A DNA stretch of 64,000 nt from Sabellastarte sp. h YS-2021 (taxonomy: Eukaryota; Annelida; Polychaeta; Sabellida; Sabellidae): NCBI GenBank assembly GCA_964017235.1, contig OZ024931.1:19940189-20004188 (forward strand), written 5' to 3'. The notes beneath the pieces are model-generated. The model was given only the letters and a program-made list of their open reading frames with translations, had not been told where the DNA came from and ran no database searches. This document shows, piece after piece, positions 1,909 through 56,157 of this stretch (positions are counted from its first letter, which is position 1; each line of letters begins with the position of its first letter). The position numbers and the translations under genes were made by a program.

Positions 1909-3270
1909 ATAAAAATTATTTGTACTCGTCAAACCCCTACAAATGACTGCTTCTGTATTATACATATTCCATTATTTTTACATATGTGTAGCTTTTTGGG
2001 GTCGTGAAAACAGCTGCAACTGATAAAATGATGAGCATATATTCATTATTTAATTTGCCAGTCTTGGATCAGCTGGTTGCAAAATTAGAAACATACGCAT
2101 AAAAATATAAATTAGTAGGTTGAAGAGGCAATTTTTACATGAGTCTGATTTTATTTTTTCATCAAAAATACAAGTTCCTCATGAAGGAACTCTGCAAATG
2201 AGGACAGATTTTGGACGATGTGTTTGAAGAGAACAAGTTTAGGCAGTCTTGGGAGGGGCTATACAATTTTGTGGCAAAAAATCAGTTACTTGAGAATTCA
2301 CTTTTGAAAAAATAATGGTTGAATCCTAGTGAATAATTCGCTAAGCTCATAAAAAAGGGTTAAACTTAGTAAGATTAATTTGAACTTAGTAAGATTAATT
2401 TGAACTTAAGATTGCAGACTAGATGTTCAAAAATTCTTGTTTAAAAAAAAAAAAAGTTAATATACGCTTTCAATATGGGGGGGGGGAGGACAAAAGTGTG
2501 GATGTTCAAAAAGACAGTATTATTAGTACTGATAGGAGGAAGTATCCTGCTAGTAGAAATAGACTTCTATCATTTGGAACCAGGCTGAACAAATTGCTGG
2601 ATACAGTGGCATCAATGGAAGGTCAAATTCAGAAACAAGAAGATAGTGGTCGGATCTTTCATCCATCCCATCTGAAGCTCCAATATGACCCCATGTCCGG
2701 AAAAGACCCAAAAGTAAAGTTACTGACACTTTAAAATCTAGTCATTACAGAACTGCATTGCACAGTTAAAGTAATTTATCCCAAGACTATTTTATATTGT
2801 CTACTTATGATGATTTAAATGGTACTCAATTAGAACAATGGTGTTTTAGAAGTAGCAGTACAGTCCAACATGTTAAAGCACTTTGACAATATAATGCAAG
2901 ATTCCATTAGGTTGTTGCACCCAACAGCCAAATCGACATGTAATGTGATGTTGCTGAAAAAATATTGCAGTTGGAATGCACAGAGTTTTGCAGTCATATA
3001 GGGCGTCTGTCTGGGGAAAATTGGAGAAACACAATGTTTTTATAAAACTGTTCAACAAAGGCACACAATTCAAATATACTGACAAATGTATCACAAACCA
3101 ACTTTACTGCAGCAATCAACATATGGTTATGGGTAAAAATACACTAAGCAGCATTGAAAAATGACAAAAAAGATGGACAATTTTACCTATAGGTAGATGA
3201 CAATGACTGCAGGTATATGGGTGAATAACACGTCCTACAAGAAACTCTTGGTTATTTTAAACTCTAATCT
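1909..3270. other. No gene seen; AT-rich
   Basis: I see no recognisable gene. An open frame at 2423-2734 begins beside an A-run and a G-run and resembles no family I know. Short direct repeats occur near 2345-2405 (a 'gaacttagtaagattaattt' unit twice in a row). Confidence 0.5.
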
Positions 3271-3385
3271 GCCTATGTATTGTAGCTTGACCAGTTCCCG
3301 TCTGTTCACTGAAGCTAAGCGGTAATGTGCTTGGTTAGCACTTGGATTGGTCACTGTCTGAGTTGTGGACCCGGCATTGGCAGAT
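3271..3385 (+). repeat. 5S rRNA-derived SINE head (copy 1)
   Basis: The stretch aligns along nearly the whole length of a metazoan 5S rRNA in plus orientation. It starts GCCTATG, has a CACTGAAGCTAAGC block (5S: CACCGAAGTTAAGC), then GGTTAGCACTTGGATTGGTCA (5S: GGTTAGTACTTGGATGGGTGACC) and ends GACCCGG-CATTGGCAG. The last block covers the internal control region (box C) of 5S genes. It is too diverged to be a working 5S gene and has two relatives at 34.8 and 52.0 kb with their own tail, so I read it as the head of a 5S-derived (SINE3-type) retroposon. Confidence 0.65.
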
Positions 3386-28298: not shown

Positions 28299-28689
28299 AC
28301 CTTAAAAATGCTTTTTGACGTTGACAATTGGGTTGGATGGCTCCAACATAATAGCTACTTTTAGGAAATGGTAGGAGTATTTTGCTATAAAAATGTAAGA
28401 TTTCAGATAAATCCCTATCATAGTGACTGAGAAAATGGCGACTAAGTGTGTAATTTTATGTTTTTCAACACAAAAAAAATATTTAAAATAAATTAAGATA
28501 GATGTGGGGCTGATACTCACACAAGAGAATCTACTAGTACTCCACTAAATATAAATACTAGAAGTGACAGAAGAAAAGGACACAAAAGTTGTGCCCTGCA
28601 AATGGTATTATGAAGGAAAGTAACAATGTAACTGTTTAAGTGTAAAAAGTAGGTTAAAACATATTTAAAGAAATAGTGCAAATGCAATA

Positions 28690-29712
28690 TCCTCGTTCGA
28701 CCTTGAAGGATGGGTCCAAGGTCAAATCCGACCACACAAAAACATTCCCAGCCCATGATTTCCTATAGGTTGGTTTACCATCCCAAACCTCTAGGACCAA
28801 TAATAAGCGAGTTATAAGCACTTTTAAGTTTGGCTGCCCTCATTTGACCTTGAAGGAGGGGTCCAAAGGTCAAATCTGACCACACCAAAAGATTCCCAGC
28901 CCATGATTTCCTATAGGATGGTTTACCATATCAAACCTCTAGAACCAATAATAAGCGAGTTATAGGCACTTTTAAGTTTCGCTATCCTTGTTTGACCTTG
29001 AAGGAGGGGTCCAAGGTCAAATCTGACCACACCAAAAGATTCCCAGCCCATGATTTCCTATAGCTTGGTTTACCATCCCAAACCTGTAGGACCAATAATA
29101 AGCGAGTTATAAGCAATTTTAAGTTTGGCTATCCTCAAATGACCTTGAAGGAGGGGTCCAAGGTCAAATCTGACCACACCAAAAGAATCCCAGCCCATGA
29201 TTTCCTATATGTTGGTTTACCGTCCCAAACCTCTAAGACCAATAATACGCGAGTTATAAGCACTTTTAAGTTTGGCTATCCTCGTTTGACCTTGAAGGCA
29301 GGGTCCAAGGTCAAATCCGACCACATCAAAAGATTCCCAGCCCATGATTTCCTATAGGTCGGTTTCCATTCCAAACCTCTAGGACCAATAATAAGTGAGT
29401 TATAAGCACTTTTAAGTTTGGCTATCCTCATTTGACCTTGAAGGAGGGGTCCAAGGTCAAATCGGATCACATCAACAGATTCCCAGCCCATGATTTCCTA
29501 TATGTCTGTTTACCATCCCAAACCTCTAGGACCAATAATAAGCGAGTTATAGGAACTTTTAAGTTTGGTTATCTTTGTTTGACCCTGAAGGAGGGATCAA
29601 AGGTCAAATCTGACCACACCAAAAGATTCCCAGCCCATGATTTCCCATAGGTTGGTTTACCATCCCAAACCTCTAGGACCAATAATAAGTGAGATATAAG
29701 CACTTTTCATGA
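28690..29712 (+). repeat. 147-bp tandem satellite array, seven units
   Basis: The GACCTTGAAGG or close variant starts at about 28699, 28846, 28994, 29141, 29288, 29434 and 29581, a period of 146-148 bp. Every unit carries a short inverted repeat, TTTGACCTTG then CAAGGTCAAA about 11 nt later, followed by a conserved ATTCCCAGCCCATGATTTCC block and an AATAATAAGCGAGTTATA block. No unit codes for a plausible protein. Units are similar but not identical, so the array is moderately old. Confidence 0.85.
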
Positions 29713-34754: not shown

Positions 34755-34935
34755 GCCAAAAGGGGTTTCGGTCTACTAGCATGAGCTGCATGCCATCAGA
34801 GACATGAGTGGTGCATTGAGGCGGTCACCCATCTAAGTACTAATGTAGCCCATTGCTTCTTAATTTCAGTGATGGAACAGGTACTCATCACCCTACACCA
34901 CAATTCATGACAGTCCGGAGACCATGAAAGAAAAA
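34755..34935 (-). repeat. 5S rRNA-derived SINE (copy 2)
   Basis: On the minus strand TTAGTACTTAGATGGGTGAC followed by CGCC matches 5S box C almost exactly. The upstream part (CATCACTGAAATTAAGAAGC) matches the 5S block before it. A tail with CTCTGATGGCATGC and CCGAAACCCCTTTTGGCCT follows, shared with the copy at 51.9 kb. Confidence 0.7.
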
Positions 34936-35189
34936 AAGAAAAAGTTATCTCTAGAAGCACGTCCCAGATCCATTACACCATGATGGTGGTTATGTGGCAG
35001 CCCTATTCAGGTTATTTTGCCTAATGGCATAAAGAGGCCCCACTGAAAAAAACGTTTACATGGCATGCACAGTCTATACAGGGTAAATCAGCAGTGGTCC
35101 TGAGAAGGACCTTTGAAGCAGCAATGGTCCCACCAAGTAATGGGAGTCAGCTAAATGTCAAACATGTAGTCTCAGTCGGGAAGTGTTGG

Positions 35190-35333
35190 CTCCAGTGGAA
35201 TACCCTCATAAGTCAAAGCAGAGGAAGCATTCTCATGGGATAAATGAAAATACAACTGGGTATCGTTTGCGTACAAATGGAATATAATATTGGGATGAGA
35301 GCCAACGATTTTACTTGGTAGAGTTGCATAGAC
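35190..35333 (-). pseudogene. Old LINE RT fragment, half split by the PLE insertion
   Basis: The minus strand reads IIFHLYANDTQLYFHLSHEN, the YADD box region of an L2/CR1 RT with the first Asp changed to Asn. The block that should precede it in the RT (VPQ-box region) lies on the other side of the PLE at 47512-47620. Confidence 0.65.
35320..35333. repeat. Left target-site duplication of the PLE insertion
   Basis: AGAGTTGCATAGAC, identical to 47512-47525. The last one or two bases also match the element end, so the length could be 12-14 bp. Confidence 0.85.
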
Positions 35334-35885
35334 TAAGGAAAAGGTCTGCTTCCTGCTTATGCAAAGACTGAAGGATGATAAGCTTTGTTTATCTGCCTTA
35401 TATAATTTACCTTGTGTAAATTATATTTCGACTGGTGTAAATATTCTCAGTCTCATCAGAGGCTATGGGATTTTCAGGTTTATGGTCCCTAAGGTACTTT
35501 TTGCTTCAACAGGGGGAGCCCCCGGTTCGGAGCCGGTTCAGAACCGGTTCAGGAGCCTGGTTGCAGGCTCCAGGTTGTGTAGGGAAGTCCTGAAGTGTGA
35601 AGTGAAGATAACTCAATTATCATAATTTTTTGTGGATTTTGATAATTTCACTTTGAGGTAGGTACTATAAACATACAACTGTGTTGTCCTCATTTGGAAG
35701 TTGGTGGTGAGTATGGGTATCTCATTTCCAGGCTTTTGTTAAGTCTCTATTTATAGGTTCCACCAAAATGAGTGTAGTTGTTAGCTTCATTAGAATTTTA
35801 TTATTATGCTTCCATATGTAATTATATTCAGTTATGAATATAATTCATATTATAAGTCATACAGAGACCAATCTGAGTCGTATAA
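35334..35885 (-). repeat. PLE pseudo-LTR, copy 1
   Basis: 552 bp, same-strand copy of 41231-41782 and inverse of 43444-43995. On the sense (minus) strand it ends just before the ORF1 start region. It contains the hammerhead ribozyme, and its left edge is the outer end of the insertion. Confidence 0.85.
35395..35463 (-). ncRNA. Hammerhead ribozyme in PLE pseudo-LTR 1
   Basis: Same fold as the copy at 43866-43934: stem I GCCU/AGGC, core CUGAUGA, stem II GACUG/CAGUC, GAAA and a long stem III. Here stem III is perfect over 11 bp because the base that mismatches in the other two copies is U, pairing with A. Cleavage is expected just before the 3' AGGC. Confidence 0.85.
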
Positions 35886-36391
35886 ATATTTATTCTAATA
35901 AGCTTCATTTACCATACTACTTTATTTATAATAGGCAGTCATATTATTTATAATTTATGAAAATAATAATAACTTTGTATACATTATCTGTAATAGTCTG
36001 CGTACCTTGTTTTTAACATTATACTAATTATGTTCAGATAAATATTAAAAAATAATATTGGTTCATAATATACCAAGTATTTAAATATATTGTTTTATTA
36101 CATATATTTATTATATTTTCTGTATAATAAAATCAGTCTAAAAATAATAAAACGTGTTTTATTATTGTTGTGTTTTAATACAGTGTTTATTATATTAAAA
36201 TCTAGTGGTGGTGTATGACCAGCTCCCATCTTGTGGTGGTGGTGGTAATACTAGTTTCCTTGGTGAGGTGACCAGGGTGGGGCGTGTAGGTTTTCTACTA
36301 CAAATGGCCTCATAAGTTGGGTTGTCAATGGTCAATGTACTTGGTTTTCTCACTTTGCTGTGTGTTGTCTCAGCTTGTTTACTGGTGATCT
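35886..36391 (-). other. PLE non-coding AT-rich segment, copy A
   Basis: Very AT-rich, downstream of the zinc-finger gene and before the pseudo-LTR on the minus strand. It matches 42938-43443 inverted. No gene. Confidence 0.6.
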
Positions 36392-37312
36392 TTATTTACT
36401 CTTGGTATGGGTTCGAGGTGTGGCAGCTTTAGGGAACTCTTTTGGTGTCCTGGGGATTAGACTTGGTCTCAATCTGGAGAACCATTTCCAATATCTAGCT
36501 GTACATGGGAGTGGCATGTTTTGTCGGTCCTCCCTGGAGGTAACAGGTTCTACATGATTTACCTGGGTGTTGCGAACAGCATCATCGATTATGTACTGTT
36601 GTCGCTCAACTATAAGGTGTTCATTATAGTCACAAGACTGGCACTTCTGGTTGTCAGTTTGGGCTGATTTATCCTTTAGAAATGTGACAGGTACACATCC
36701 TATCTGAGTGGTGGCTTTCTTTGACACTTTTAAAGTGGTCTTGGCTTCCTCTGGTAAATTATGTGTTGAGAGGAGCGCTGATACTGTGGGAGTTAAGTTA
36801 TAAATCCCCAGTGGTGATGTGTTCATACTTTTGTTTTCTTCAGTGGAAAAACTCTTATCTGTGTTCACTCCTATACAGATTCTAGGTGGTACCAGGGGAG
36901 CAGGCTGTGACTCATCATCGCTTAACGCAAGGTCCTTGGTTAAGATTGTTTCCCAGTCAGTGACCCCTGTTATGGCATTAGTGGTGGCTTCTAAAGTATG
37001 GTTATTGCTTGTAGTGGCCTGGGGTTGATGGGTAGTGGTATTGGCTTCCATCATTGTAGAGGTGTTTGGTTTACCATAAGTGACATTATCTGGCCCTTGT
37101 TTCATTATTAGAGGTGGATGGGTTTTGCTTATGTGGCCTATATAGTCCACATTTCTGGTGTATTTCTTATTGCAGATTCCACATATGAATCTCTTTTCAT
37201 TGTGAATAGTATTAATATGGCGTCTTAAGCTTGATTTGTGCTTAAAACTTTGGTTACAATGTCCACATAAGTATTTATTTCTATCCATAATGACACTATG
37301 TGATTTTTCCAT
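36392..37312 (-). CDS. PLE two-finger C2H2 protein, copy A
   Basis: 306 residues, open throughout. Two adjacent C2H2 fingers near the N-terminus: Cys16-Cys19-His32-His37 and Cys44-Cys47-His60-His65, each C-x2-C-x12-H-x4-H with a TIHNEKRF linker. The rest is Thr/Ser/Asn-rich with a Pro-rich patch (SQPAPLVPPR) and ends in a basic tail. It probably binds nucleic acid. It lies about 460 bp 3' of the RT stop in copy A and 5' of the pseudo-LTR in copy B, so it is a regular part of the repeating unit. A companion zinc-finger ORF is not part of the textbook PLE plan; a captured host gene or an overlooked element gene are both possible. It looks the same as copy B. Confidence 0.8.
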   Translation of the reverse strand: MEKSHSVIMDRNKYLCGHCNQSFKHKSSLRRHINTIHNEKRFICGICNKKYTRNVDYIGHISKTHPPLIMKQGPDNVTYGKPNTSTMMEANTTTHQPQATTSNNHTLEATTNAITGVTDWETILTKDLALSDDESQPAPLVPPRICIGVNTDKSFSTEENKSMNTSPLGIYNLTPTVSALLSTHNLPEEAKTTLKVSKKATTQIGCVPVTFLKDKSAQTDNQKCQSCDYNEHLIVERQQYIIDDAVRNTQVNHVEPVTSREDRQNMPLPCTARYWKWFSRLRPSLIPRTPKEFPKAATPRTHTKSK

Positions 37313-37771
37313 CCAAGTGCTAAAAATGACTTAGTGACTGATTTTGTGATGTCATTTGATTGTATGACGTTTTTGTGCCATGACGTAATTATTAAGATTA
37401 CGTCATAGCTATAAATCACTTTTTACATAATATTCAGGTGTTATTTTATTTTTAAATAATTTTTTATTTTATTTAAAAATATTTTATTATTTTTAATTTT
37501 ATTTGAAGTGATATATATTGTTAAATCTCATGCTCTGGAATATATAAACATGCTTATTTTAATGAAAATAATCTTAATTACGATTATAAACACCAATTTT
37601 GCGATGTTTATAAATTGTCTATTTAATGGCTTATTTTTAATAGTGATTATTTTTAAACTATGTTGGGTTGTTTTTAGGTGAATTCTGGTGATCTTCATGG
37701 CTATATAAAACACAGAAGAGGGAAGGGGTGATTACTGAGTGCATTGTAATCAAGATAATAACCAAGAAGAT

Positions 37772-40186
37772 TCACACAAATTGGTTAATGCCAATAGGAG
37801 CCAGAGAGTGCAATTTAAATATCCAAGACAACTCAATACGCCTACGCTTGGAAGTGTTGGATGCTTCAAATTTAGGTGTGCACCACTCTAGCACAGAGAA
37901 TTGCATGTTCTTGTGGTTATGTCCATCACTTGTGAAGTGACGCGAGACAGGAGTGTCTATTGTATCTGCCTTTTGTACAGAATGTCTGTGTTCATACATT
38001 CTTTGTCTAAATGCACGTGAGGTTTCCCCCACATAGTGTTTATTGCATTTGGAGCAGGTAATCAGGTATATGACATTATTAATTTCACATGAGAAATTCT
38101 TGGGTAAGTTTTGTGTGTTGAATAACTTGTGTGTAAAGTTACATTTTACCGATCCCTTCTTTTTGATTAGGGGGCAGTAAGTGCATTTACCGAGTCTGGT
38201 GCATACAGGTAAGTATGGTTTTGTCTCTATGTCAGTAGTAGGAGGGTAAATGAGAGTGGCATTTGTTAATTTGTCTCTCAAGTTTGGTAGTCTCCTAAAA
38301 CCTACCAAAGGTTTGTCTTTAAAGATTGGTCCACAGTCCTGGCTATTTGTTATAATATTCCAGTTTTTGTGGATCAGTTCCTTAATGTTGGGGTTACCTG
38401 GGTTATAATTGGTTACCATTACTGGTGTCTTGACAGGTTCTTTCCTTGTCACTTCTAGTAATTCATCTTGTGTGAATTTTGAGGCTCTATTGTAATGTTT
38501 GCGTAGGGCCTTTTCTGGATATCCTCTTTTTAAGTAATAGCCAATGAGTTTATCAGCATTCATATTAAAGTCATTGTCATATGTACAAATTCTTCTGAGT
38601 CTTAAGAATTGGCCATATGGTCCCTTTGTCTTACTTGGTGCGTGGTGTGCAGATGTATAGTGTAGGCACAGATGGGTGTCTGTGGGTTTTTCATATAGGG
38701 TTGTGTATAGTTCCCTATCTTGGTTAATCTTTACTGTGGTATCTAGAAAGTTAATGTGTGTTAGGCTGCTTTCATGAGTGAACTTAATAGTAGGGTGTAT
38801 ACTATTAAGATATGTGATGAACTCATTGAGCTGATCTTCTCCATGTGTCCACACCATCCATATGTCGTCGATGAACCGAAGCCATAATAGAGGTTTTAAT
38901 GGCCAATTTGCTAGTGCTTTAGTCTCAAATCTGTCCATGAATAGGTTTGCATAGTTCGGTGCTGTTGCCGTACCCATTGCTGTGCCTCCTATTTGGAGAT
39001 AATGGTCTCCATTGAAACTGAAGCTCATAGAATGTAGTACTAGTTTGAGTAGGTTCAATATGTGAGGTCCCATTTTTCGTTTATCTGGGTCCTTCCTCAA
39101 GTGTTCTGCCACAGCTATTAGACCTTCCTGATTTGGAATGTTTGTGTATAGTGAACTAACATCTAGTGTAACTAGTAAAGCTCCTTCTGGGATTTTGCCA
39201 AGTTGTTTGATCCTACTTATGAAGTGTTGTGTGTCTCTTACATAAGATTTTGTTTGAGGAACATATTTCTTTATGTGTTCGTCTACAAATTTGCTAATGT
39301 TGGCTGTGGGATGGTTTATTGAACTACATATTGGTCTACCAGGTACTCCCTTTTTGTGGATTTTTGGTAGCATGTAGAACCTGGCTTCTTTTGGATTGGG
39401 CACATTGAGATAATCAAAGTTTTTCTCTGTGATTAAGTTTAGCGATCTCATTTGTGTTAATTCCTCAGCAATTTTCTCAGAAATTTGAGGTGTTATGTCC
39501 TCAGGTATTTTCTGGTAAAACTTTTCATCTTGTAGTTGCCTGTAACCTTCTCGTAGATAGTCAATAGTGTTCATTACTACTACTGCTGACCCTTTATCTG
39601 CCTTCTTTATGATTATATGGGGGTTAGAAGTTAGTTTGTTCATACCTATGTTTTCACCTTTGGTGGTGTTTTTGTGTCTAATAGGTTTGAATTTTGACTT
39701 TAGTATTTCTTGCTTGACTGATCGTTGGAATAAGTCAAGGGTTCTGTTTGGTGGTTTTGGCCTCCAGGTTGATTTGGGTTTGAACTTTTGTTGAAGTTCT
39801 TTATTGAGTGTGGATTCATTGTCAGAGTCAGATTGATCCTCCCTAGCATTTTGATTCATAAAATCTATGATGCTTTGGCTGACTTGTGGTTGCATTGAGT
39901 CAGTCTGATCTCTACTGAAGAATTCCATTAATTCTAATCTTCTGTGGAACTCTTTAAAATCTAACCATATCTGAGATTTGTCAGGTAGGCCAGGGGTTGG
40001 ACAGAAGGTAAGTCCCTTTTCTAAGGCCGATATTTGGTCTTGGTCCAAGTTGACATTTGATATGTTTATAACAGTATGTCCAATGTAACTTTCGAACTTG
40101 GTATTCTTAGGTAAGATACCAGGTTGTGCTGTTTTGGCCTCAGTTCTGAGGGTGTCTAAAAAGTTAGGTTCCTCAATGCTAGACAT
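37772..40186 (-). CDS. PLE reverse transcriptase with GIY-YIG endonuclease, copy A
   Basis: 804 residues, uninterrupted. The N-terminal region (1-190) has the PLE word GILPKNTKFESYIGHTV. RT core: KKADKGSAVVV (194-204), MLPKIHKKGVPGRPICSSIN (272-291), TLDVSSLYTNIP (340-351, catalytic Asp), GGTAMGTATAPNYANLFMD (400-418) and RFIDDIW (437-443, the YxDD equivalent). A Cys cluster CTRLGKCTYC (662-671) precedes the GIY-YIG nuclease: NVIYLITC (704-711), HYVGETS (717-723), FRQR (726-729) and a late Glu (767). The protein copies PLE RNA by target-primed reverse transcription after nicking. It differs from copy B at about three residues. The start MSSIEEP follows about 230 bp after the ORF1 stop. Confidence 0.92.
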   Translation of the reverse strand: MSSIEEPNFLDTLRTEAKTAQPGILPKNTKFESYIGHTVINISNVNLDQDQISALEKGLTFCPTPGLPDKSQIWLDFKEFHRRLELMEFFSRDQTDSMQPQVSQSIIDFMNQNAREDQSDSDNESTLNKELQQKFKPKSTWRPKPPNRTLDLFQRSVKQEILKSKFKPIRHKNTTKGENIGMNKLTSNPHIIIKKADKGSAVVVMNTIDYLREGYRQLQDEKFYQKIPEDITPQISEKIAEELTQMRSLNLITEKNFDYLNVPNPKEARFYMLPKIHKKGVPGRPICSSINHPTANISKFVDEHIKKYVPQTKSYVRDTQHFISRIKQLGKIPEGALLVTLDVSSLYTNIPNQEGLIAVAEHLRKDPDKRKMGPHILNLLKLVLHSMSFSFNGDHYLQIGGTAMGTATAPNYANLFMDRFETKALANWPLKPLLWLRFIDDIWMVWTHGEDQLNEFITYLNSIHPTIKFTHESSLTHINFLDTTVKINQDRELYTTLYEKPTDTHLCLHYTSAHHAPSKTKGPYGQFLRLRRICTYDNDFNMNADKLIGYYLKRGYPEKALRKHYNRASKFTQDELLEVTRKEPVKTPVMVTNYNPGNPNIKELIHKNWNIITNSQDCGPIFKDKPLVGFRRLPNLRDKLTNATLIYPPTTDIETKPYLPVCTRLGKCTYCPLIKKKGSVKCNFTHKLFNTQNLPKNFSCEINNVIYLITCSKCNKHYVGETSRAFRQRMYEHRHSVQKADTIDTPVSRHFTSDGHNHKNMQFSVLEWCTPKFEASNTSKRRRIELSWIFKLHSLAPIGINQFV

Positions 40187-40420
40187 GTTTGAAATGAACC
40201 TTTATTTTATTAATAGGTGGGTTGTCCTTGAGGTAGTTTTTGGCTATTCAGGGGGAGCCTGTTATGTTACAGGTTCTGAACCAGGTTTTCTATGGGTTGT
40301 ACCTGGTTTGGAGTAAGGTCATTTAAAACACTGATTCAAATACTATATCTGTTTATTGAATACGCCACATATGATATCAGATATTAGAAGGTATGAGTAG
40401 AAAGATAGTCTATTATTCCT

Positions 40421-41221
40421 TTATTTAAGGAGTGCTTTAAGAGTATTAAGGAGTTTGTCCATTTTTGGATCATTCCTTTGCCTTCTTTGGTTTGGAGCCT
40501 GGTTCTGCCTTCTTCTTGGAGCCTGGTTGAAGCGTTTCTTTGGCTGCTTGTCTGCGAATTGCTTCTGTGTTTTGTCTATCTGAATGGGTGCCATTTGTTG
40601 AAATTTATCGAGCAAGGAGTCCTTTATTTCTTGGGACTGCTCCTTGGTGAGGAGTGTATCCACCTCGGTAAGATCTTTGGCAATGGAGGCTTTGGTCCTG
40701 CTATATGCGGCTTGGAGGTCATCAATAAGTGTAGTAGTTAGTTCAAACTTACATCTTCTGATGATTCTTGACCAGTGGTCTTTCAGTTTTGGACTCCTGG
40801 TGCTATTGATGTTGAATTTGAAGTCAACACTTGTCGGGTATTGGTTCTTGGCTAACCTACCCTCCATTACTTTAATGGTTGAGGCTAAGGAGAGCTTCTT
40901 TCTATGAAGATTCTTCAGTCTCAAGTAAATGGGTTTGGTGGCGGCTGGGTAGTTGTCCCTAAGGTCTGTGTAATCCTTTTTAGCTGATGGGCCACTTTGG
41001 TTGGGGGAATTAACTCTCTTTCGTTTTTGAGGTTTATTCCTGTTGGACATTGGTAGCTCAAGTTGTTCTTTAACTGCATTGAGAGTTCTTAATGTCTCTT
41101 CAGATATCCTGTTTTCTGGCATGGGGGTATCATAACCACTCGCAGGTTCTGAGGTCACTCTGACACTAGACATGGTGTTGCAGAATTCAGTCTGGCTAGC
41201 AGTGGTTGAAGGAGCACTCAT
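40421..41221 (-). CDS. PLE ORF1, basic protein, copy A
   Basis: 266 residues from MSAPSTTASQTEF. The frame is open 44 codons further up, but that stretch lies in the pseudo-LTR and ribozyme, so I chose the ATG just after it. The middle is Lys/Arg-rich with a predicted helical part (LRLKNLHRKKLSLASTIKVM); the C-terminus is strongly basic and Gln-rich (KKRFNQAPRRRQNQAPNQRR). It resembles a nucleic-acid-binding chaperone; no named domain is recognised. Tandem partner of the RT gene on the same strand. Confidence 0.82.
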   Translation of the reverse strand: MSAPSTTASQTEFCNTMSSVRVTSEPASGYDTPMPENRISEETLRTLNAVKEQLELPMSNRNKPQKRKRVNSPNQSGPSAKKDYTDLRDNYPAATKPIYLRLKNLHRKKLSLASTIKVMEGRLAKNQYPTSVDFKFNINSTRSPKLKDHWSRIIRRCKFELTTTLIDDLQAAYSRTKASIAKDLTEVDTLLTKEQSQEIKDSLLDKFQQMAPIQIDKTQKQFADKQPKKRFNQAPRRRQNQAPNQRRQRNDPKMDKLLNTLKALLK

Positions 41222-41230
41222 AGTGAAAAC

Positions 41231-41782
41231 TAAGGAAAAGGTCTGCTTCCTGCTTATGCAAAGACTGAAGGATGATAAGCTTTGTTTATCTGCCTTATAT
41301 AATTTACCTTGTGTAAATTGTATTTCGACTGGTGTAAATATTCTCAGTCTCATCAGAGGCTATGGGATTTTCAGGTTTATGGTCCCTAAGGTACTTTTTG
41401 CTTCAACAGGGGGAGCCCCCGGTTCGGAGCCGGTTCAGAACCGGTTCAGGAGCCTGGTTGCAGGCTCCAGGTTGTGTAGGGAAGTCCTGAAGTGTGAAGT
41501 GAAGATAACTCAATTATCATAATTTTTTGTGGATTTTGATAATTTCACTTTGAGGTAGGTACTATGAACATACAACTGTGTTGTCCTCATTTGGAAGTTG
41601 GTGGTGAGTATGGGTATCTCATTTCCAGGCTTTTGTTAAGTCTCTATTTATAGGTTCCACCAAAATGAGTGTAGTTGTTAGCTTCATTAGAATTTTATTA
41701 TTATGCTTCCATATGTAATTATATTCAGTTATGAATATAATTCATATTATAAGTCATACAGAGACCAATCTGAGTCGTATAA
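41231..41782 (-). repeat. PLE pseudo-LTR, copy 2 (5' of copy A genes)
   Basis: 552 bp, nearly identical to 35334-35885. It starts at the inversion junction (41782/41783) and leads into ORF1 of copy A. Confidence 0.85.
41292..41360 (-). ncRNA. Hammerhead ribozyme in PLE pseudo-LTR 2
   Basis: Stem I GCCU/AGGC, CUGAUGA core, stem II GACUG/CAGUC, GAAA, stem III of 11 positions with one C-A mismatch. Type I topology, like the ribozymes reported in PLE pseudo-LTRs. Confidence 0.85.
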
Positions 41783-42016
41783 GCTATATTCCAGAGCATG
41801 AGATTTAACAATATATATCACTTCAAATAAAATTAAAAATAATAAAATATTTTTAAATAAAATAAAAAATTATTTAAAAATAAAATAACACCTGAATATT
41901 ATGTAAAAAGTGATTTATAGCTATGACGTAATCTTAATAATTACGTCATGGCACAAAAACGTCATACAATCAAATGACATCACAAAATCAGTCACTAAGT
42001 CATTTTTAGCACTTGG

Positions 42017-42937
42017 ATGGAAAAATCACATAGTGTCATTATGGATAGAAATAAATACTTATGTGGACATTGTAACCAAAGTTTTAAGCACAAATCAAGC
42101 TTAAGACGCCATATTAATACTATTCACAATGAAAAGAGATTCATATGTGGAATCTGCAATAAGAAATACACCAGAAATGTGGACTATATAGGCCACATAA
42201 GCAAAACCCATCCACCTCTAATAATGAAACAAGGGCCAGATAATGTCACTTATGGTAAACCAAACACCTCTACAATGATGGAAGCCAATACCACTACCCA
42301 TCAACCCCAGGCCACTACAAGCAATAACCATACTTTAGAAGCCACCACTAATGCCATAACAGGGGTCACTGACTGGGAAACAATCTTAACCAAGGACCTT
42401 GCATTAAGCGATGATGAGTCACAGCCTGCTCCCCTGGTACCACCTAGAATCTGTATAGGAGTGAACACAGATAAGAGTTTTTCCACTGAAGAAAACAAAA
42501 GTATGAACACATCACCACTGGGGATTTATAACTTAACTCCCACAGTATCAGCGCTCCTCTCAACACATAATTTACCAGAGGAAGCCAAGACCACTTTAAA
42601 AGTGTCAAAGAAAGCCACCACTCAGATAGGATGTGTACCTGTCACATTTCTAAAGGATAAATCAGCCCAAACTGACAACCAGAAGTGCCAGTCTTGTGAC
42701 TATAATGAACACCTTATAGTTGAGCGACAACAGTACATAATCGATGATGCTGTTCGCAACACCCAGGTAAATCATGTAGAACCTGTTACCTCCAGGGAGG
42801 ACCGACAAAACATGCCACTCCCATGTACAGCTAGATATTGGAAATGGTTCTCCAGATTGAGACCAAGTCTAATCCCCAGGACACCAAAAGAGTTCCCTAA
42901 AGCTGCCACACCTCGAACCCATACCAAGAGTAAATAA
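42017..42937 (+). CDS. PLE two-finger C2H2 protein, copy B
   Basis: 306 residues, apparently identical to the copy at 37312-36392, with fingers at residues 16-37 and 44-65. In copy B this gene comes first, about 230 bp from the inversion junction, then the pseudo-LTR, ORF1 and RT. No difference from copy A is seen in the protein, although the copies have had the chance to drift, which fits a recent origin of the pair. Confidence 0.8.
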   Translation: MEKSHSVIMDRNKYLCGHCNQSFKHKSSLRRHINTIHNEKRFICGICNKKYTRNVDYIGHISKTHPPLIMKQGPDNVTYGKPNTSTMMEANTTTHQPQATTSNNHTLEATTNAITGVTDWETILTKDLALSDDESQPAPLVPPRICIGVNTDKSFSTEENKSMNTSPLGIYNLTPTVSALLSTHNLPEEAKTTLKVSKKATTQIGCVPVTFLKDKSAQTDNQKCQSCDYNEHLIVERQQYIIDDAVRNTQVNHVEPVTSREDRQNMPLPCTARYWKWFSRLRPSLIPRTPKEFPKAATPRTHTKSK

Positions 42938-43443
42938 AGATCACCAGTAAACAAGCTGAGACAACACACAGCAAAGTGAGAAAACCAAGTACATTGACCA
43001 TTGACAACCCAACTTATGAGGCCATTTGTAGTAGAAAACCTACACGCCCCACCCTGGTCACCTCACCAAGGAAACTAGTATTACCACCACCACCACAAGA
43101 TGGGAGCTGGTCATACACCACCACTAGATTTTAATATAATAAACACTGTATTAAAACACAACAATAATAAAACACGTTTTATTATTTTTAGACTGATTTT
43201 ATTATACAGAAAATATAATAAATATATGTAATAAAACAATATATTTAAATACTTGGTATATTATGAACCAATATTATTTTTTAATATTTATCTGAACATA
43301 ATTAGTATAATGTTAAAAACAAGGTACGCAGACTATTACAGATAATGTATACAAAGTTATTATTATTTTCATAAATTATAAATAATATGACTGCCTATTA
43401 TAAATAAAGTAGTATGGTAAATGAAGCTTATTAGAATAAATAT
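42938..43443 (+). other. PLE non-coding AT-rich segment, copy B
   Basis: Mirror of 35886-36391. No gene. Confidence 0.6.
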
Positions 43444-43995
43444 TTATACGACTCAGATTGGTCTCTGTATGACTTATAATATGAATTATATTCATAACTG
43501 AATATAATTACATATGGAAGCATAATAATAAAATTCTAATGAAGCTAACAACTACACTCATTTTGGTGGAACCTATAAATAGAGACTTAACAAAAGCCTG
43601 GAAATGAGATACCCATACTCACCACCAACTTCCAAATGAGGACAACACAGTTGTATGTTTATAGTACCTACCTCAAAGTGAAATTATCAAAATCCACAAA
43701 AAATTATGATAATTGAGTTATCTTCACTTCACACTTCAGGACTTCCCTACACAACCTGGAGCCTGCAACCAGGCTCCTGAACCGGTTCTGAACCGGCTCC
43801 AAACCGGGGGCTCCCCCTGTTGAAGCAAAAAGTACCTTAGGGACCATAAACCTGAAAATCCCATAGCCTCTGATGAGACTGAGAATATTTACACCAGTCG
43901 AAATACAATTTACACAAGGTAAATTATATAAGGCAGATAAACAAAGCTTATCATCCTTCAGTCTTTGCATAAGCAGGAAGCAGACCTTTTCCTTA
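43444..43995 (+). repeat. PLE pseudo-LTR, copy 3
   Basis: 552 bp, inverse of the other two. In copy B it lies between the zinc-finger gene and ORF1, so it probably supplies promoter and ribozyme for the ORF1-RT transcript. Confidence 0.85.
43866..43934 (+). ncRNA. Hammerhead ribozyme in PLE pseudo-LTR 3
   Basis: GCCU (43866-43869) and AGGC (43931-43934) form stem I. CUGAUGA lies at 43870-43876. GACUG (43877-43881) and CAGUC (43895-43899) form stem II. GAAA lies at 43900-43903. AUACAAUUUAC pairs with GUAAAUUAUAU as stem III, with one C-A mismatch and an ACAAG loop. The cleavage site would be after A43930 (AUA, allowed by the NUH rule). All invariant core bases are present. Confidence 0.88.
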
Positions 43996-44004
43996 GTTTT
44001 CACT

Positions 44005-44805
44005 ATGAGTGCTCCTTCAACCACTGCTAGCCAGACTGAATTCTGCAACACCATGTCTAGTGTCAGAGTGACCTCAGAACCTGCGAGTGGTTATGATACC
44101 CCCATGCCAGAAAACAGGATATCTGAAGAGACATTAAGAACTCTCAATGCAGTTAAAGAACAACTTGAGCTACCAATGTCCAACAGGAATAAACCTCAAA
44201 AACGAAAGAGAGTTAATTCCCCCAACCAAAGTGGCCCATCAGCTAAAAAGGATTACACAGACCTTAGGGACAACTACCCAGCCACCACCAAACCCATTTA
44301 CTTGAGACTGAAGAATCTTCATAGAAAGAAGCTCTCCTTAGCCTCAACCATTAAAGTAATGGAGGGTAGGTTAGCCAAGAACCAATACCCGACAAGTGTT
44401 GACTTCAAATTCAACATCAATAGCACCAGGAGTCCAAAACTGAAAGACCACTGGTCAAGAATCATCAGAAGATGTAAGTTTGAACTAACTACTACACTTA
44501 TTGATGACCTCCAAGCCGCATATAGCAGGACCAAAGCCTCCATTGCCAAAGATCTTACCGAGGTGGATACACTCCTCACCAAGGAGCAGTCCCAAGAAAT
44601 AAAGGACTCCTTGCTCGATAAATTTCAACAAATGGCACCCATTCAGATAGACAAAACACAGAAGCAATTCGCAGACAAGCAGCCAAAGAAACGCTTCAAC
44701 CAGGCTCCAAGAAGAAGGCAGAACCAGGCTCCAAACCAAAGAAGGCAAAGGAATGATCCAAAAATGGACAAACTCCTTAATACTCTTAAAGCACTCCTTA
44801 AATAA
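44005..44805 (+). CDS. PLE ORF1, basic protein, copy B
   Basis: 266 residues, identical to copy A except one Ala/Thr difference (YPAATK versus YPATTK). It begins 10 bp beyond the pseudo-LTR end, and the ribozyme cut site lies about 75 bp upstream, so an RNA cut there would start just before this gene. The C-terminus is basic and Gln-rich; probable RNA-binding partner of the RT. Confidence 0.82.
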   Translation: MSAPSTTASQTEFCNTMSSVRVTSEPASGYDTPMPENRISEETLRTLNAVKEQLELPMSNRNKPQKRKRVNSPNQSGPSAKKDYTDLRDNYPATTKPIYLRLKNLHRKKLSLASTIKVMEGRLAKNQYPTSVDFKFNINSTRSPKLKDHWSRIIRRCKFELTTTLIDDLQAAYSRTKASIAKDLTEVDTLLTKEQSQEIKDSLLDKFQQMAPIQIDKTQKQFADKQPKKRFNQAPRRRQNQAPNQRRQRNDPKMDKLLNTLKALLK

Positions 44806-45039
44806 AGGAATAATAGACTATCTTTCTACTCATACCTTCTAATATCTGATATCATATGTGGCGTATTCAATAAACAGATATAGTATTTGAATCAGTGTTT
44901 TAAATGACCTTACTCCAAACCAGGTACAACCCATAGAAAACCTGGTTCAGAACCTGTAACATAACAGGCTCCCCCTGAATAGCCAAAAACTACCTCAAGG
45001 ACAACCCACCTATTAATAAAATAAAGGTTCATTTCAAAC

Positions 45040-47454
45040 ATGTCTAGCATTGAGGAACCTAACTTTTTAGACACCCTCAGAACTGAGGCCAAAACAGCAC
45101 AACCTGGTATCTTACCTAAGAATACCAAGTTCGAAAGTTACATTGGACATACTGTTATAAACATATCAAATGTCAACTTGGACCAAGACCAAATATCGGC
45201 CTTAGAAAAGGGACTTACCTTCTGTCCAACCCCTGGCCTACCTGACAAATCTCAGATATGGTTAGATTTTAAAGAGTTCCACAGAAGATTAGAATTAATG
45301 GAATTCTTCAGTAGAGATCAGACTGACTCAATGCAACCACAAGTCAGCCAAAGCATCATAGATTTTATGAATCAAAATGCTAGGGAGGATCAATCTGACT
45401 CTGACAATGAATCCACACTCAATAAAGAACTTCAACAAAAGTTCAAACCCAAATCAACCTGGAGGCCAAAACCACCAAACAGAACCCTTGACTTATTCCA
45501 ACGATCAGTCAAGCAAGAAATACTAAAGTCAAAATTCAAACCTATTAGACACAAAAACACCACCAAAGGTGAAAACATAGGTATGAACAAACTAACTTCT
45601 AACCCCCATATAATCATAAAGAAGGCAGATAAAGGGTCAGCAGTAGTAGTAATGAACACTATTGACTATCTACGAGAAGGTTACAGGCAACTACAAGATG
45701 AAAAGTTTTACCAGAAAATACCTGAGGACATAACACCTCAAATTTCTGAGAAAATTGCTGAGGAATTAACACAAATGAGATCGCTAAACTTAATCACAGA
45801 GAAAAACTTTGATTATCTCAATGTGCCCAATCCAAAAGAAGCCAGGTTCTACATGCTACCAAAAATCCACAAAAAGGGAGTACCTGGTAGACCAATATGT
45901 AGTTCAATAAACCATCCCACAGCCAACATTAGCAAATTTGTAGACGAACACATAAAGAAATATGTTCCTCAAACAAAATCTTATGTAAGAGACACACAAC
46001 ACTTCATAAGTAGGATCAAACAACTTGGCAAAATCCCAGAAGGAGCCTTACTAGTTACACTAGATGTTAGTTCACTATACACAAACATTCCAAATCAGGA
46101 AGGTCTAATAGCTGTGGCAGAACACTTGAGGAAGGACCCAGATAAACGAAAAATGGGACCTCACATATTGAACATACTCAAACTAGTACTACATTCTATG
46201 AGCTTCAGTTTCAATGGAGACCATTATCTCCAAATAGGAGGCACAGCAATGGGTACGGCAACAGCACCGAACTATGCAAACCTATTCATGGACAGATTTG
46301 AGACTAAAGCACTAGCAAATTGGCCATTAAAACCTCTATTATGGCTTCGGTTCATCGACGACATCTGGATGGTGTGGACACATGGAGAAGATCAGCTCAA
46401 TGAGCTCATCACATATCTTAATAGTATACACCCTACTATTAAGTTCACTCATGAAAGCAGCCTAACACACATTAACTTTCTAGATACCACAGTAAAGATT
46501 AACCAAGATAGGGAACTATACACAACCCTATATGAAAAACCCACAGACACCCATCTGTACCTACACTATACATCTGCACACCACGCACCAAGTAAGACAA
46601 AGGGACCATATGGCCAATTCTTAAGACTCAGAAGAATTTGTACATATGACAATGACTTTAATATGAATGCTGATAAACTCATTGGCTATTACTTAAAAAG
46701 AGGATATCCAGAAAAGGCCCTACGCAAACATTACAATAGAGCCTCAAAATTCACACAAGATGAATTACTAGAAGTGACAAGGAAAGAACCTGTCAAGACA
46801 CCAGTAATGGTAACCAATTATAACCCAGGTAACCCCAACATTAAGGAACTGATCCACAAAAACTGGAATATTATAACAAATAGCCAGGACTGTGGACCAA
46901 TCTTTAAAGACAAACCTTTGGTAGGTTTTAGGAGACTACCAAACTTGAGAGACAAATTAACAAATGCCACTCTCATTTACCCTCCTACTACTGACATAGA
47001 GACAAAACCATACTTACCTGTATGCACCAGACTCGGTAAATGCACTTACTGCCCCCTAATCAAAAAGAAGGGATCGGTAAAATGTAACTTTACACACAAG
47101 TTATTCAACACACAAAACTTACCCAAGAATTTCTCATGTGAAATTAATAATGTCATATACCTGATTACCTGCTCCAAATGCAATAAACACTATGTGGGGG
47201 AAACCTCACGTGCATTTAGACAAAGAATGTATGAACACAGACATTCTGTACAAAAGGCAGATACAATAGACACTCCTGTCTCACGTCACTTCACAAGTGA
47301 TGGACATAACCACAAGAACATGCAATTCTCTGTGCTAGAGTGGTGCACACCTAAATTTGAAGCATCCAACACTTCCAAGCGTAGGCGTATTGAGTTGTCT
47401 TGGATATTTAAATTGCACTCTCTGGCTCCTATTGGCATTAACCAATTTGTGTGA
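45040..47454 (+). CDS. PLE reverse transcriptase with GIY-YIG endonuclease, copy B
   Basis: 804 residues, the same domains and positions as copy A; about three residues differ (for example NIL/NLL near 379, NEL/NEF near 456, LYL/LCL near 507). RT catalytic Asp residues (342; FIDD 438-441) and GIY-YIG residues are intact. The element ends 57 bp after the stop, at the right target duplication. With copy A it gives two potentially working enzymes in one intron, on the strand opposite to the host gene in this copy. Confidence 0.92.
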   Translation: MSSIEEPNFLDTLRTEAKTAQPGILPKNTKFESYIGHTVINISNVNLDQDQISALEKGLTFCPTPGLPDKSQIWLDFKEFHRRLELMEFFSRDQTDSMQPQVSQSIIDFMNQNAREDQSDSDNESTLNKELQQKFKPKSTWRPKPPNRTLDLFQRSVKQEILKSKFKPIRHKNTTKGENIGMNKLTSNPHIIIKKADKGSAVVVMNTIDYLREGYRQLQDEKFYQKIPEDITPQISEKIAEELTQMRSLNLITEKNFDYLNVPNPKEARFYMLPKIHKKGVPGRPICSSINHPTANISKFVDEHIKKYVPQTKSYVRDTQHFISRIKQLGKIPEGALLVTLDVSSLYTNIPNQEGLIAVAEHLRKDPDKRKMGPHILNILKLVLHSMSFSFNGDHYLQIGGTAMGTATAPNYANLFMDRFETKALANWPLKPLLWLRFIDDIWMVWTHGEDQLNELITYLNSIHPTIKFTHESSLTHINFLDTTVKINQDRELYTTLYEKPTDTHLYLHYTSAHHAPSKTKGPYGQFLRLRRICTYDNDFNMNADKLIGYYLKRGYPEKALRKHYNRASKFTQDELLEVTRKEPVKTPVMVTNYNPGNPNIKELIHKNWNIITNSQDCGPIFKDKPLVGFRRLPNLRDKLTNATLIYPPTTDIETKPYLPVCTRLGKCTYCPLIKKKGSVKCNFTHKLFNTQNLPKNFSCEINNVIYLITCSKCNKHYVGETSRAFRQRMYEHRHSVQKADTIDTPVSRHFTSDGHNHKNMQFSVLEWCTPKFEASNTSKRRRIELSWIFKLHSLAPIGINQFV

Positions 47455-47511
47455 ATCTTCTTGGTTATTATCTTGATTACAATGCACTCAGTAATCACCC
47501 CTTCCCTCTTC

Positions 47512-47525
47512 AGAGTTGCATAGAC
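47512..47525. repeat. Right target-site duplication of the PLE insertion
   Basis: AGAGTTGCATAGAC, perfect match to 35320-35333. Confidence 0.85.
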
Positions 47526-47620
47526 CGTAGAATGAGAACCATGGCCCAAGCACTGAATCTCTGAGGGACTTCACAATACCTTGGGATTTAGATGCAAATT
47601 GGGATTTAACACATTGCCTC
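47512..47620 (-). pseudogene. Old LINE RT fragment, other half
   Basis: The minus strand has a diverged CEVPQ-like start of the VPQGSVLGP block and leads, across the PLE, into the YANDTQLY block at 35190-35333. Both lie on the same strand in the right order, which shows the PLE landed in a pre-existing LINE. Confidence 0.5.
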
Positions 47621-48187: not shown

Positions 48188-49706
48188 CTAAGGTGGAAAT
48201 GATTTCTGAAATAGGTAGGTTTTTAGTCGACTTTTGAAACAGGAGAGATTTGGAGCACTGCGGATATCATGGGGAAGATCATTCCATAACTTCGGGGCAT
48301 CATATGAGAAACTGTTGTTGAAGTGGACCTTTGATTTATGGATGGAAGAACAATAATGAGGAACCTGGAGGAACAAATTTTTTGGGTTGGAACGTCTTGT
48401 ATTCACGGCAGATTTGTACAAGGAGAAATGGTGCAAAATACTTAGGCTGGCCAGTGGTGAGGTACTTATACACCAGAACTAGGGATTTGAAGATAATTCG
48501 TTGTCTGATGGGTAGCCAATGAAGTGTCCTAAGGCTGGATGTGATGTGAGTGTACTTAGAAGCACCAGTGACAAACCGTGCAAGAGCATTTTGAACATAT
48601 TGCAGCCTGGTTGCATTACGGGATCACAAACTGCAAAATAGAGAATTGCAATAATCCAAATGACTGCTGACCAGACCATTTGCAATCACCACTGATGTAT
48701 CAACGGAGAGAAACCTCCTGATACGATGAAGGTCCCTGAGGCTAATAAAACAAGATTTGATGACAGAATTTACGTGATTGGTGAAACAGAACTTTGCATC
48801 AAACAAAACACCCAAATTGCGTACAACATCTGTGGGAGAGAGACAATTACCCAGGATATTGACAGGAAATGAGTCACTGAGCCATTTGTATCTGTCTTTG
48901 GCACCAAAGACTATGAATTTTGTTTTATCAGGGTTTAGCTAGAGTTTGTTTTCAGACATCCAGACCTGAATATCATTCAAACAGGATTTAAGACGGTCAA
49001 AAGACTTAAGACTATCATCAGGGGATAAGTGAATGAACAGCTGGGTATCATCAGCATAAAAGTGGTATTTAACTCCAGTATATTTTCTGATGACTTGACC
49101 AAGAGGTGTTGTATAGAGGGAAAATAGAAGAGGACCTAAGACAGAACCTTGGGTTTCAATTTGAACAAGTTCGAAAAACTAGAACCAATCTTGACTGACT
49201 GAAAATGATCCTGGAGGTAGGATCTAAACCATTTTAGTGCAGATCCAGCAAAGCCAAACCTAGCTGACAAACAGAAAAGGAGTGTGTCATGATCGATAGT
49301 ATCGATAGCTGCAGACAGGTCGAGCAGCACCAGTGCTGTAGGCATGCCCTTGGACAGAGATAAGTGAATCTCATTTTTAATGCACAACAAGGCAGTTTCT
49401 ATTGAGTGCCCCACCTTATAGGCTGACTGGAAAGTTTTTCCAAGATTGTGACAATCCATGTGAGACCTAATTTGGGCTTGGCGGTGGTTTGATGAGCTGT
49501 TTAGTCTTCACTGGTGCATTAATATCTAGAAGGCCAGACAAACCAGACATATACTGTTCATGCAATAAATCAATGTCATCAGATGGTGAACTTACCAACG
49601 GAATAGCCAGGAGGTCACTTCTGAATTTATCAATATTCAATTTATGATACTGACGGAAGGTAACAACTTTCTGCATTGGAGTATCCGAAGATGGAAAGTC
49701 AACCAC
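48188..49706 (-). pseudogene. LINE C reverse transcriptase, deleted and frameshifted
   Basis: Pieces in order: TFRQYHKLNIDKFRSDL, FQSAYKVGHSIETALL, LVLLDLSAAIDTIDHDTLL (motif A kept), a YADD region near 49045, VLFDAKFCFTNHV, SSHLDYCNSLF and SYDAPKLWNDLPHDIRSAPN. About 150 residues between the linker and the SAYKVGHS box are missing. Confidence 0.75.
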
Positions 49707-51904: not shown

Positions 51905-52160
51905 AGGCCAAAAGGTGTTTTGGTCCCCTAGTGCGAGTGCAAAGCCATCAGAGGCACGAGTAGTGCACTAGAGTTTACGAAAGTCTGGAGACACAAAGAA
52001 AATTCCAACTCAGACACATCCCACAGCTGGTCTAGAACTCAGACAGTCACCCATCCAAGTACTAGCGTAGCCCATTGCCGATTACCCTCAGTGATCAGAC
52101 AAATACTCATCATGCTGCGCCACAATTCATGAAAGTCCAGAGACAAAAAAAGTGATCTGT
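51905..52160 (-). repeat. 5S rRNA-derived SINE (copy 3)
   Basis: The minus strand has GTCTGATCACTGAGGGTAAT, then GCTAGTACTTGGATGGGTGA, a near-exact match to 5S rRNA over the last block (box C). A tail with CCTCTGATGGCTTTGCACTC and CAAAACACCTTTTGGCCT matches copy 2. Its middle is about 75 bp longer than in copy 2. Confidence 0.75.
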
Positions 52161-55815: not shown

Positions 55816-56157
55816 TTATTTAATCAACTGTATGTAATAACCAAATAACAATACCACAATAAATGGACAATAGCAAGTGAGTGAAATTAATAATAAACTA
55901 GAGCATGACACGACCCCATTTGACATCCTTCTGTCAGTTATAAAGGAGGCCATTTTTCTGTCAATTATAATGAAGCTATCATTCATCTAAAGCTATATTT
56001 AATGTTTCAAAGGGGTAACTAATCTTTATAGAGACAGATTATGTGTCTTCTCATTAAGAACCCATTCATTATAGAATGGGTTTTTACTGAGAATACGCAT
56101 AATTTGTCCCTATACAGGAGCCATTTGTCTCTGTCCTTTATAAACTACATCCAGTTA
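55816..56157. other. No gene; AT-rich
   Basis: Part of segment X. It holds a small inverted repeat (ACCCATTCATTATAGAATGGGT near 56065-56090). No gene. Confidence 0.4.

Follow-up and report, generated by a model that had tools for sequence, protein, structure and literature searches.

The stretch analysed here, referred to as the window, comprises 64,000 nucleotides from the polychaete Sabellastarte sp. h YS-2021 (assembly GCA_964017235.1, contig OZ024931.1; C5:19940189-20004188 in the 1.79-Gb genome that was surveyed). The mitochondrial COX1 of this genome is open under codes such as table 5 and has more than two stops in every frame under the vertebrate code, as is likely for an invertebrate. 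It contains two near-identical, inverted arms of a Penelope-like element (PLE), joined head to head and enclosed by two perfect copies of one 14-bp target-site duplication, as an earlier note on this DNA had described. The two arms end outward at different places of the element, which we call the P5 and P3 start sites. The insert is built as follows:

35209-35333: left half of an old target repeat, which continues at 47526-47570
35320-35333: left copy of the 14-bp target-site duplication, AGAGTTGCATAGAC
35334-41782, minus strand: arm A (the P5 arm), a circularly permuted 1.09 unit; its outer end is the P5 start site and its inner (5') end lies at 41782
35332-35885, minus strand: outer copy of the pseudo-long terminal repeat (pseudo-LTR) of arm A, a 554-bp direct repeat of 41229-41782
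37545-37714, minus strand: 170 bp separating the internal P3 site from the zinc-finger side, found in arm A only and missing in arm B
41229-41782, minus strand: inner copy of the pseudo-LTR of arm A, a 554-bp direct repeat of 35332-35885
41783-41784: filler of two bases, GC, at the head-to-head junction
41785-47511, plus strand: arm B (the P3 arm), a 0.97 unit; its inner (5') end lies at 41785 and its outer end is the P3 start site, after the third reading frame listed below
47512-47525: right copy of the 14-bp target-site duplication, AGAGTTGCATAGAC

The arms align without gaps, as had been claimed, and differ at 9 of 4,068 and at 3 of 2,211 aligned positions. The view of the insert as a pair of two copies holds as far as this near-identity goes; equal copies they are not, given the permutation and excess length of arm A and the slightly incomplete arm B. 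The pseudo-LTR repeat is present in arm A because this arm is longer than one unit. Positions in the unit are numbered a1-a6449 on the reverse complement of arm A, and the period is 5,897. Three open reading frames (ORFs), one of them encoding a reverse transcriptase (RT) with an endonuclease (EN), are found in each arm:

42017-42937, plus strand: C2H2 zinc-finger ORF, 306 aa (arm A copy at 36392-37312, minus strand; proteins identical)
43873-44805, plus strand: ORF1, 310 aa (arm A copy at 40421-41353, minus strand; one difference between the arms)
45040-47454, plus strand: RT + GIY-YIG endonuclease ORF, 804 aa (arm A copy at 37772-40186, minus strand; three differences)

All three are open in both arms, in agreement with the earlier note. 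The 804-aa protein matched the GIY-YIG profile with 32.1 bits (cut-off 22.6) and the RVT_1 profile with 29.5 bits, just below the cut-off of 29.6; a PDB search with the RT protein returned no match, and no Pfam family exceeded its cut-off for ORF1. The 554-bp direct repeat, the period of ~5.9 kb and arrays at several loci correspond to the pseudo-LTRs and partial tandems of PLEs. On these sequence features, namely RT and GIY-YIG in one ORF, pseudo-LTRs with partial tandems and a target duplication, we classify the element as an endonuclease-containing PLE. In arm B, the P3 site lies 57 nt past the stop codon of the RT-EN ORF. The P5 site lies within the first part of ORF1, 65 nt beyond the cut of a predicted hammerhead ribozyme, and P3 follows P5 after ~3.5 kb, or 2.4 kb in the opposite direction around the unit.

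The flanks of the insert were one piece before insertion, since paralogous repeats run across the join: of 38 other matches listed for the joined flanks, the window's own two halves excluded, four cross it, and the two of these that were aligned (L011 and L012, 76-77%) traverse it with small gaps only. The earlier note had called the flanks halves of one old LINE (long interspersed nuclear element). Their contiguity is borne out; the LINE identity is presumed by us on the sole basis of an RT-tail-like ORF at 48188-48436. With contiguous flanks and one duplication for the pair, the proposal of a single integration event is upheld.

The pair had also been considered unusual, and a genome survey does not agree with this. 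Patterns representing P5 (the end of arm A) and P3 (the end of arm B) were scanned with at most three mismatches, and gave 83 and 80 matches, respectively, while the reversed sequences used as controls gave none. The matches group into 59 clusters, 37 of which hold at least two; 44 clusters could be resolved as insertions, the remaining 15 being mostly lone matches with two or three mismatches. Among the 44 resolved insertions are 31 head-to-head pairs whose two ends carry matching target sequence, and inverted arrangements have been described for PLEs (PMC3846280, partial text). Every one of the 31 pairs has one P5 and one P3 outer end (p ~3e-12 under the end types of the 13 one-ended copies, 5e-10 under an even draw), and an inverted arm with another outer end was found in none of the 44. 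The pair is relevant to how PLEs prime, as the earlier note had suggested; the ends are of two kinds, one each per pair. At the level of clusters, the outermost matches point outward in 29 of 59; 28 of these 29 combine one P5 and one P3 match, C1:15.71 being the exception, and tail-to-tail order was not seen in any of the 59. By its pattern matches C1:15.71 resembled a P5+P5 pair, but the element runs on beyond the left match and the left outer end is not reached; at C3:182 the element likewise continues beyond the leftmost match. Neither cluster is counted as resolved.

The ends of 28 pairs, found with the end-containing patterns, were read. Both outer ends fall within windows of 6-7 nt, and the target match measures 13-17 bp in 27 of the 28, with up to three bases at each end of the match that could equally belong to the element. 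Three further pairs (C14:93.35, C14:46 and C14:85) were recognised on reading the flanks, and all of them are P5+P3; the P3 end of C14:93.35 carries a small deletion, and the P5 arms of C14:46 and C14:85 are merely ~9-13 nt long. The sites are A+T-rich, and no clear asymmetric target motif was seen in them. The target of the head-to-head pair at C5:51.5 Mb resembles, by eye, one unit of a 147-bp tandem repeat located in the window at 28688-29707.

Another important question is whether such pairs move as ready-made units or are formed at each insertion. Inner junctions were read for 25 of the 31 pairs, and all 25 differ. In the search for further copies of the 41782/41783 junction that the earlier note had recommended, a 202-bp query over this junction was scored for 40 of 211 candidates and matched end to end at the window only; the 24 further junctions that were read lie elsewhere in the unit. 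The pair as a mobile unit is therefore not sustained; with all junctions different and no second window junction in the matches scored, the pairs were made anew at each insertion. The two inner ends are at most 50 nt apart in 5 of 25 pairs (0.68 expected after shuffling, p ~1e-4), which suggests that, in some pairs, both arms stop at one and the same RNA end. Four inner ends fall at ~a4185-a4361, upstream of the zinc-finger ORF (including those of the window at 41785, of C5:3.69 and of C4:105), possibly a transcription start.

By sequence divergence, arms are closer to each other within an insertion than between insertions. Average divergence is 0.32% among segments of the same insertion (71 pairs, 8 insertions) and 1.38% among segments of different insertions (2,034 pairs); the segment pairs in this comparison are not mutually independent. 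For 31 of 37 segments, the closest sequence comes from their own insertion. Rare P3 variants are common to both arms in all six informative clusters (the window, C7:103, C5:34, C5:38, C11:24 and C18:87).

The pseudo-LTR contains the predicted hammerhead, consisting of a core and three stems with a helix III of ~10 bp:

43866-43934, plus strand: predicted hammerhead of arm B, predicted cut 43930|43931 (a487|a488)
near 35395-35463 and 41292-41360, minus strand: predicted hammerhead copies of arm A

The best Rfam match on a 171-base stretch was RAGATH-1-hammerhead at 17.6 bits, far under the gathering score of 56.3 (E 0.87), and on the whole element Rfam reported no hammerhead at E up to 1. The fold surpasses shuffled sequence to a modest degree only, with a z-score of -1.69 and 13 of 200 shuffles folding at least as well. 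A strict three-stem scan, composed after the motif had already been seen, gave one match in the window (the outer copy of arm A) and none in 600 randomised 12.2-kb sequences; in the other copies of the window, one stem-III pair is changed, as judged by eye. The 42 hammerhead regions in the loci examined represent 12 distinct sequences, 9 of which preserve the cut triplet and the core together with stems I and II. ORF1 has its first ATG (43873 in arm B) within this core, so cutting would part that ATG from the remainder of ORF1; the next in-frame ATG (44005) lies beyond P5.

Inner ends of P5 arms coincide with the predicted cut to within 4 nt in 4 of 25 pairs (C4:90 at a488, C5:126.9 at a488, C5:133.5 at a485 and C1:131 at a492), with p ~7e-8 under uniform chance and ~9e-4 among the eight short P5 arms; for P3 arms, the same holds in 1 of 25 (C4:90, ending at a489). 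Longer P5 arms extend beyond the cut, which indicates that uncut or rejoined RNA also serves as template. The limits behind these junction statistics were chosen post hoc: the hammerhead footprint was scored within 4 nt, junctions counted as near-symmetric within 50 nt, and arms as short at a415-555. The inner end of the P5 arm of C1:131 was entered as a491 (a492 in the alignment), and the corresponding ends at C14:46 and C14:85 are estimates by eye.

The other 13 of the 44 resolved insertions have one defined end only, which is P3 in nine (C2:155, C2:168, C3:186, C4:85.8, C4:97, C7:116, C4:105, C8:104 and C8:80) and P5 in four (C3:21, C1:65, C5:29 and C5:79). A target match of at least 8 bp accompanies 10 of the 13, some with short filler; that of C2:168 was read by eye, those of C4:97 (8 bp) and C7:116 (9 bp) are weak, and matching target sequence is absent at C8:80, C5:29 and C5:79. 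Head-to-tail arrays of 5.9-kb units occur at C5:47433238-47475555, C18:66254744-66287587 and C5:79138140-79182159, the first two of which also contain an inverted arm and are enclosed, over 42 and 33 kb, respectively, by a 14-bp duplication. Unit spacings in the array at C5:47.4 are 6,218, 5,884, 6,221, 5,884 and 5,894, which fit a dimeric template and later unequal exchange equally well. At C3:182128828-182134141, three P5 sites ~2.6 kb apart and no P3 site were found, possibly an array of an internally deleted derivative.

What is observed directly is that the outer ends are fixed, with one of each kind in every pair, that there is a duplication, that the inner junctions are independent of each other and that the arms are close kin. 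Judged from sequence, the window pair very probably results from one integration event of this GIY-YIG PLE via paired target-primed reverse transcription. Both target strands would be cut roughly 12-15 nt apart, and each free 3' end would prime reverse transcription on element RNA, one strand at P5 and the other at P3. The two cDNAs, each with a variable 5' end, would then be linked in head-to-head orientation. The RT may have jumped end to end, from its own template to the 3' end of the second cDNA; end joining by the host would serve as well. Filling of the stagger would leave the single duplication; the window represents an instance in which both arms are long. The arms may have been copied from one RNA, from two sister RNAs or from a circular RNA; what we infer, beyond the direct observations, is that both strands are cut, how the cDNAs are joined and how many RNA molecules, one or two, are used. 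The chances are about even for a more specific version, in which the RNA carries two separate start signals, a complex obliges the use of one per target strand, and hammerhead-processed RNA is a template in the animal.

How do other routes to an inverted pair compare? Classic twin priming of the L1 style, in which the second target strand primes one linear RNA at a chance internal place, leaving an inverted 5' part, also yields inverted head-to-head arms with one duplication, and the excess of inner ends at most 50 nt apart hints at a shared RNA end. However, the second start is fixed rather than left to chance, both outer ends varying by 6-7 nt only, and the arms overlap by 0.8-4 kb in the window and at several loci, which on one linear RNA would need strand displacement; we consider this route unlikely. 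Still less probable, to the point of being hard to maintain, is that one arm served as the source of the other, through hairpin self-priming or a template switch at the time of integration or later, an option close to the one that the earlier note had left beside the single event. Some copies do have palindromic junctions (C4:90, C6:88 and C5:38), and self-priming has been proposed for rotifer PLEs (PMC3846280, partial text); such copying predicts identical outer ends, however, and the ends differ in 31 of 31 pairs, the palindromic ones included. The opposite outer ends therefore argue against arm-from-arm copying as a general route, as well as against random internal priming.

Independent insertion of the two arms, or inversion or ectopic exchange of copies at a later time, would be in keeping with the tandem arrays, which show that exchange or multi-unit templates occur in this element. 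One duplication per pair speaks for one event, however, and a single matching duplication at each of 31 loci, outer ends that always point outward and are opposite in type, and variants shared between arms leave this explanation with next to no probability. Long inverted repeats are prone to misassembly, and an artefact might be suspected for that reason; it is very unlikely, since 31 loci share one architecture and each has a flanking match of its own at both ends, the 25 junctions read are each private and target paralogues without the insert exist.

Several observations weigh against paired priming at P5 and P3. With 13 of 44 insertions one-ended, pairing is not obligatory. A shared sequence or fold that distinguishes P5 and P3 was sought and none was found, 92 of 800 other places scoring equally. 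Six of the 37 segments are nearer to another insertion than to their own; divergence within an insertion reaches 1.1%, and between insertions it may be 0 over short overlaps. At C5:8.65, the exact duplication is just 8 bp, and longer if one mismatch is allowed. The inner junctions represent 25 of the 31 pairs and the insertions 44 of the 59 clusters. Moreover, because the patterns contain both ends, the survey favours copies with P5 and P3 ends, and copies whose ends are quite different would escape it or look one-ended; the three pairs whose second end was missed by the patterns are still P5+P3, which counters this bias.

Outside the insert, the window contains several sub-threshold matches to structured RNAs. 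In the flanking repeat, 35070-35116 (minus strand) resembles the histone 3' untranslated region stem-loop (26.8 bits, gathering score 34), and a stretch of up to 56 bp there recurs in 11 of the 40 flank matches listed. A 5S-rRNA-like match at 3268-3385 (plus strand) reaches 36.3 bits, just under the gathering score of 38; 34824-34930 and 52046-52152 resemble each other, and one of them partly resembles 3268-3385. By sequence resemblance, these three may be a 5S-derived repeat. A mir-137-like match at 56034-56107 (plus strand) has 33.1 bits, under the gathering score of 56.7.

In L1 twin priming, two target strands prime, part of the copy is inverted and one duplication remains; the Sabellastarte pairs have the inverted arrangement and the single duplication, and probably the priming by both strands. 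The pairs differ in their arms, which may be multi-unit and overlapping, and in the second start, which is fixed within 6-7 nt in the 28 pairs read rather than variable as in L1.

Among PLEs, the closest parallel is the Anolis Poseidon element (PAc), described in PMC11167929, of which we draw on partial text. Its protein cuts and extends both strands in vitro and starts internally at two adjacent sites beyond the hammerhead, near the ORF start; P5, a short way past the predicted cut, corresponds in position to this internal start. Common to both elements are the RT + GIY-YIG protein and tandem units with pseudo-LTRs, and probably also the internal RNA start and the extension of both target strands; the hammerhead overlapping an ORF start in PAc has a predicted counterpart in Sabellastarte (PMC11167929, partial text). 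In PAc, however, the two starts are adjacent and show no strand difference, whereas in Sabellastarte the second start is kilobases away and each pair uses one of each; instead of both outer ends lying at the pseudo-LTR tail, as in PAc, one is P3 in all 31 pairs. A counterpart of P3 was not found in the available part of the PAc description, and the zinc-finger ORF and separate ORF1 also set the Sabellastarte element apart from PAc (PMC11167929, partial text). The authors of the same source report that insertion in vitro does not require hammerhead cutting and that they saw no RNA ends at the cut, which speaks against the cut having a general role. According to PMC7761336 (partial text), the hammerheads of PLEs are minimal and lack helix III or loop contacts; the predicted one here differs by its helix III. 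In Penelope families of the rotifer Adineta vaga, pseudo-LTRs occur inverted and head to head, tandems are partial and one inverted end may bear a tail (PMC3846280, partial text). Inverted pseudo-LTRs, partial tandems and target duplications are shared with them; their duplications are 8-10 bp in the quoted cases, as against mostly 13-17 bp here, and their inverted ends are pseudo-LTR ends, as against one outer end after the RT-EN ORF in Sabellastarte. The accessible parts of PMC12910113 and PMC7599744 offered nothing further for this comparison. Two distant start sites used one per strand were not reported in the literature searched, the older Penelope literature being outside its scope, and the novelty of this usage is provisional.

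It is an open question in the field how PLEs integrate, what makes inverted copies so frequent and which function the hammerheads have. Since the start sites of this element are kilobases apart, the site used by each end can be read from each insertion. The pairs thereby provide in-genome support for the two-strand extension known in vitro, argue against hairpin copying as the source of inverted pairs and may hold a footprint of hammerhead-cut RNA as template. The use of one start site per strand is a testable rule and, if it is true, the tail/no-tail asymmetry of other PLEs would follow from this rule where the two sites lie close to each other.

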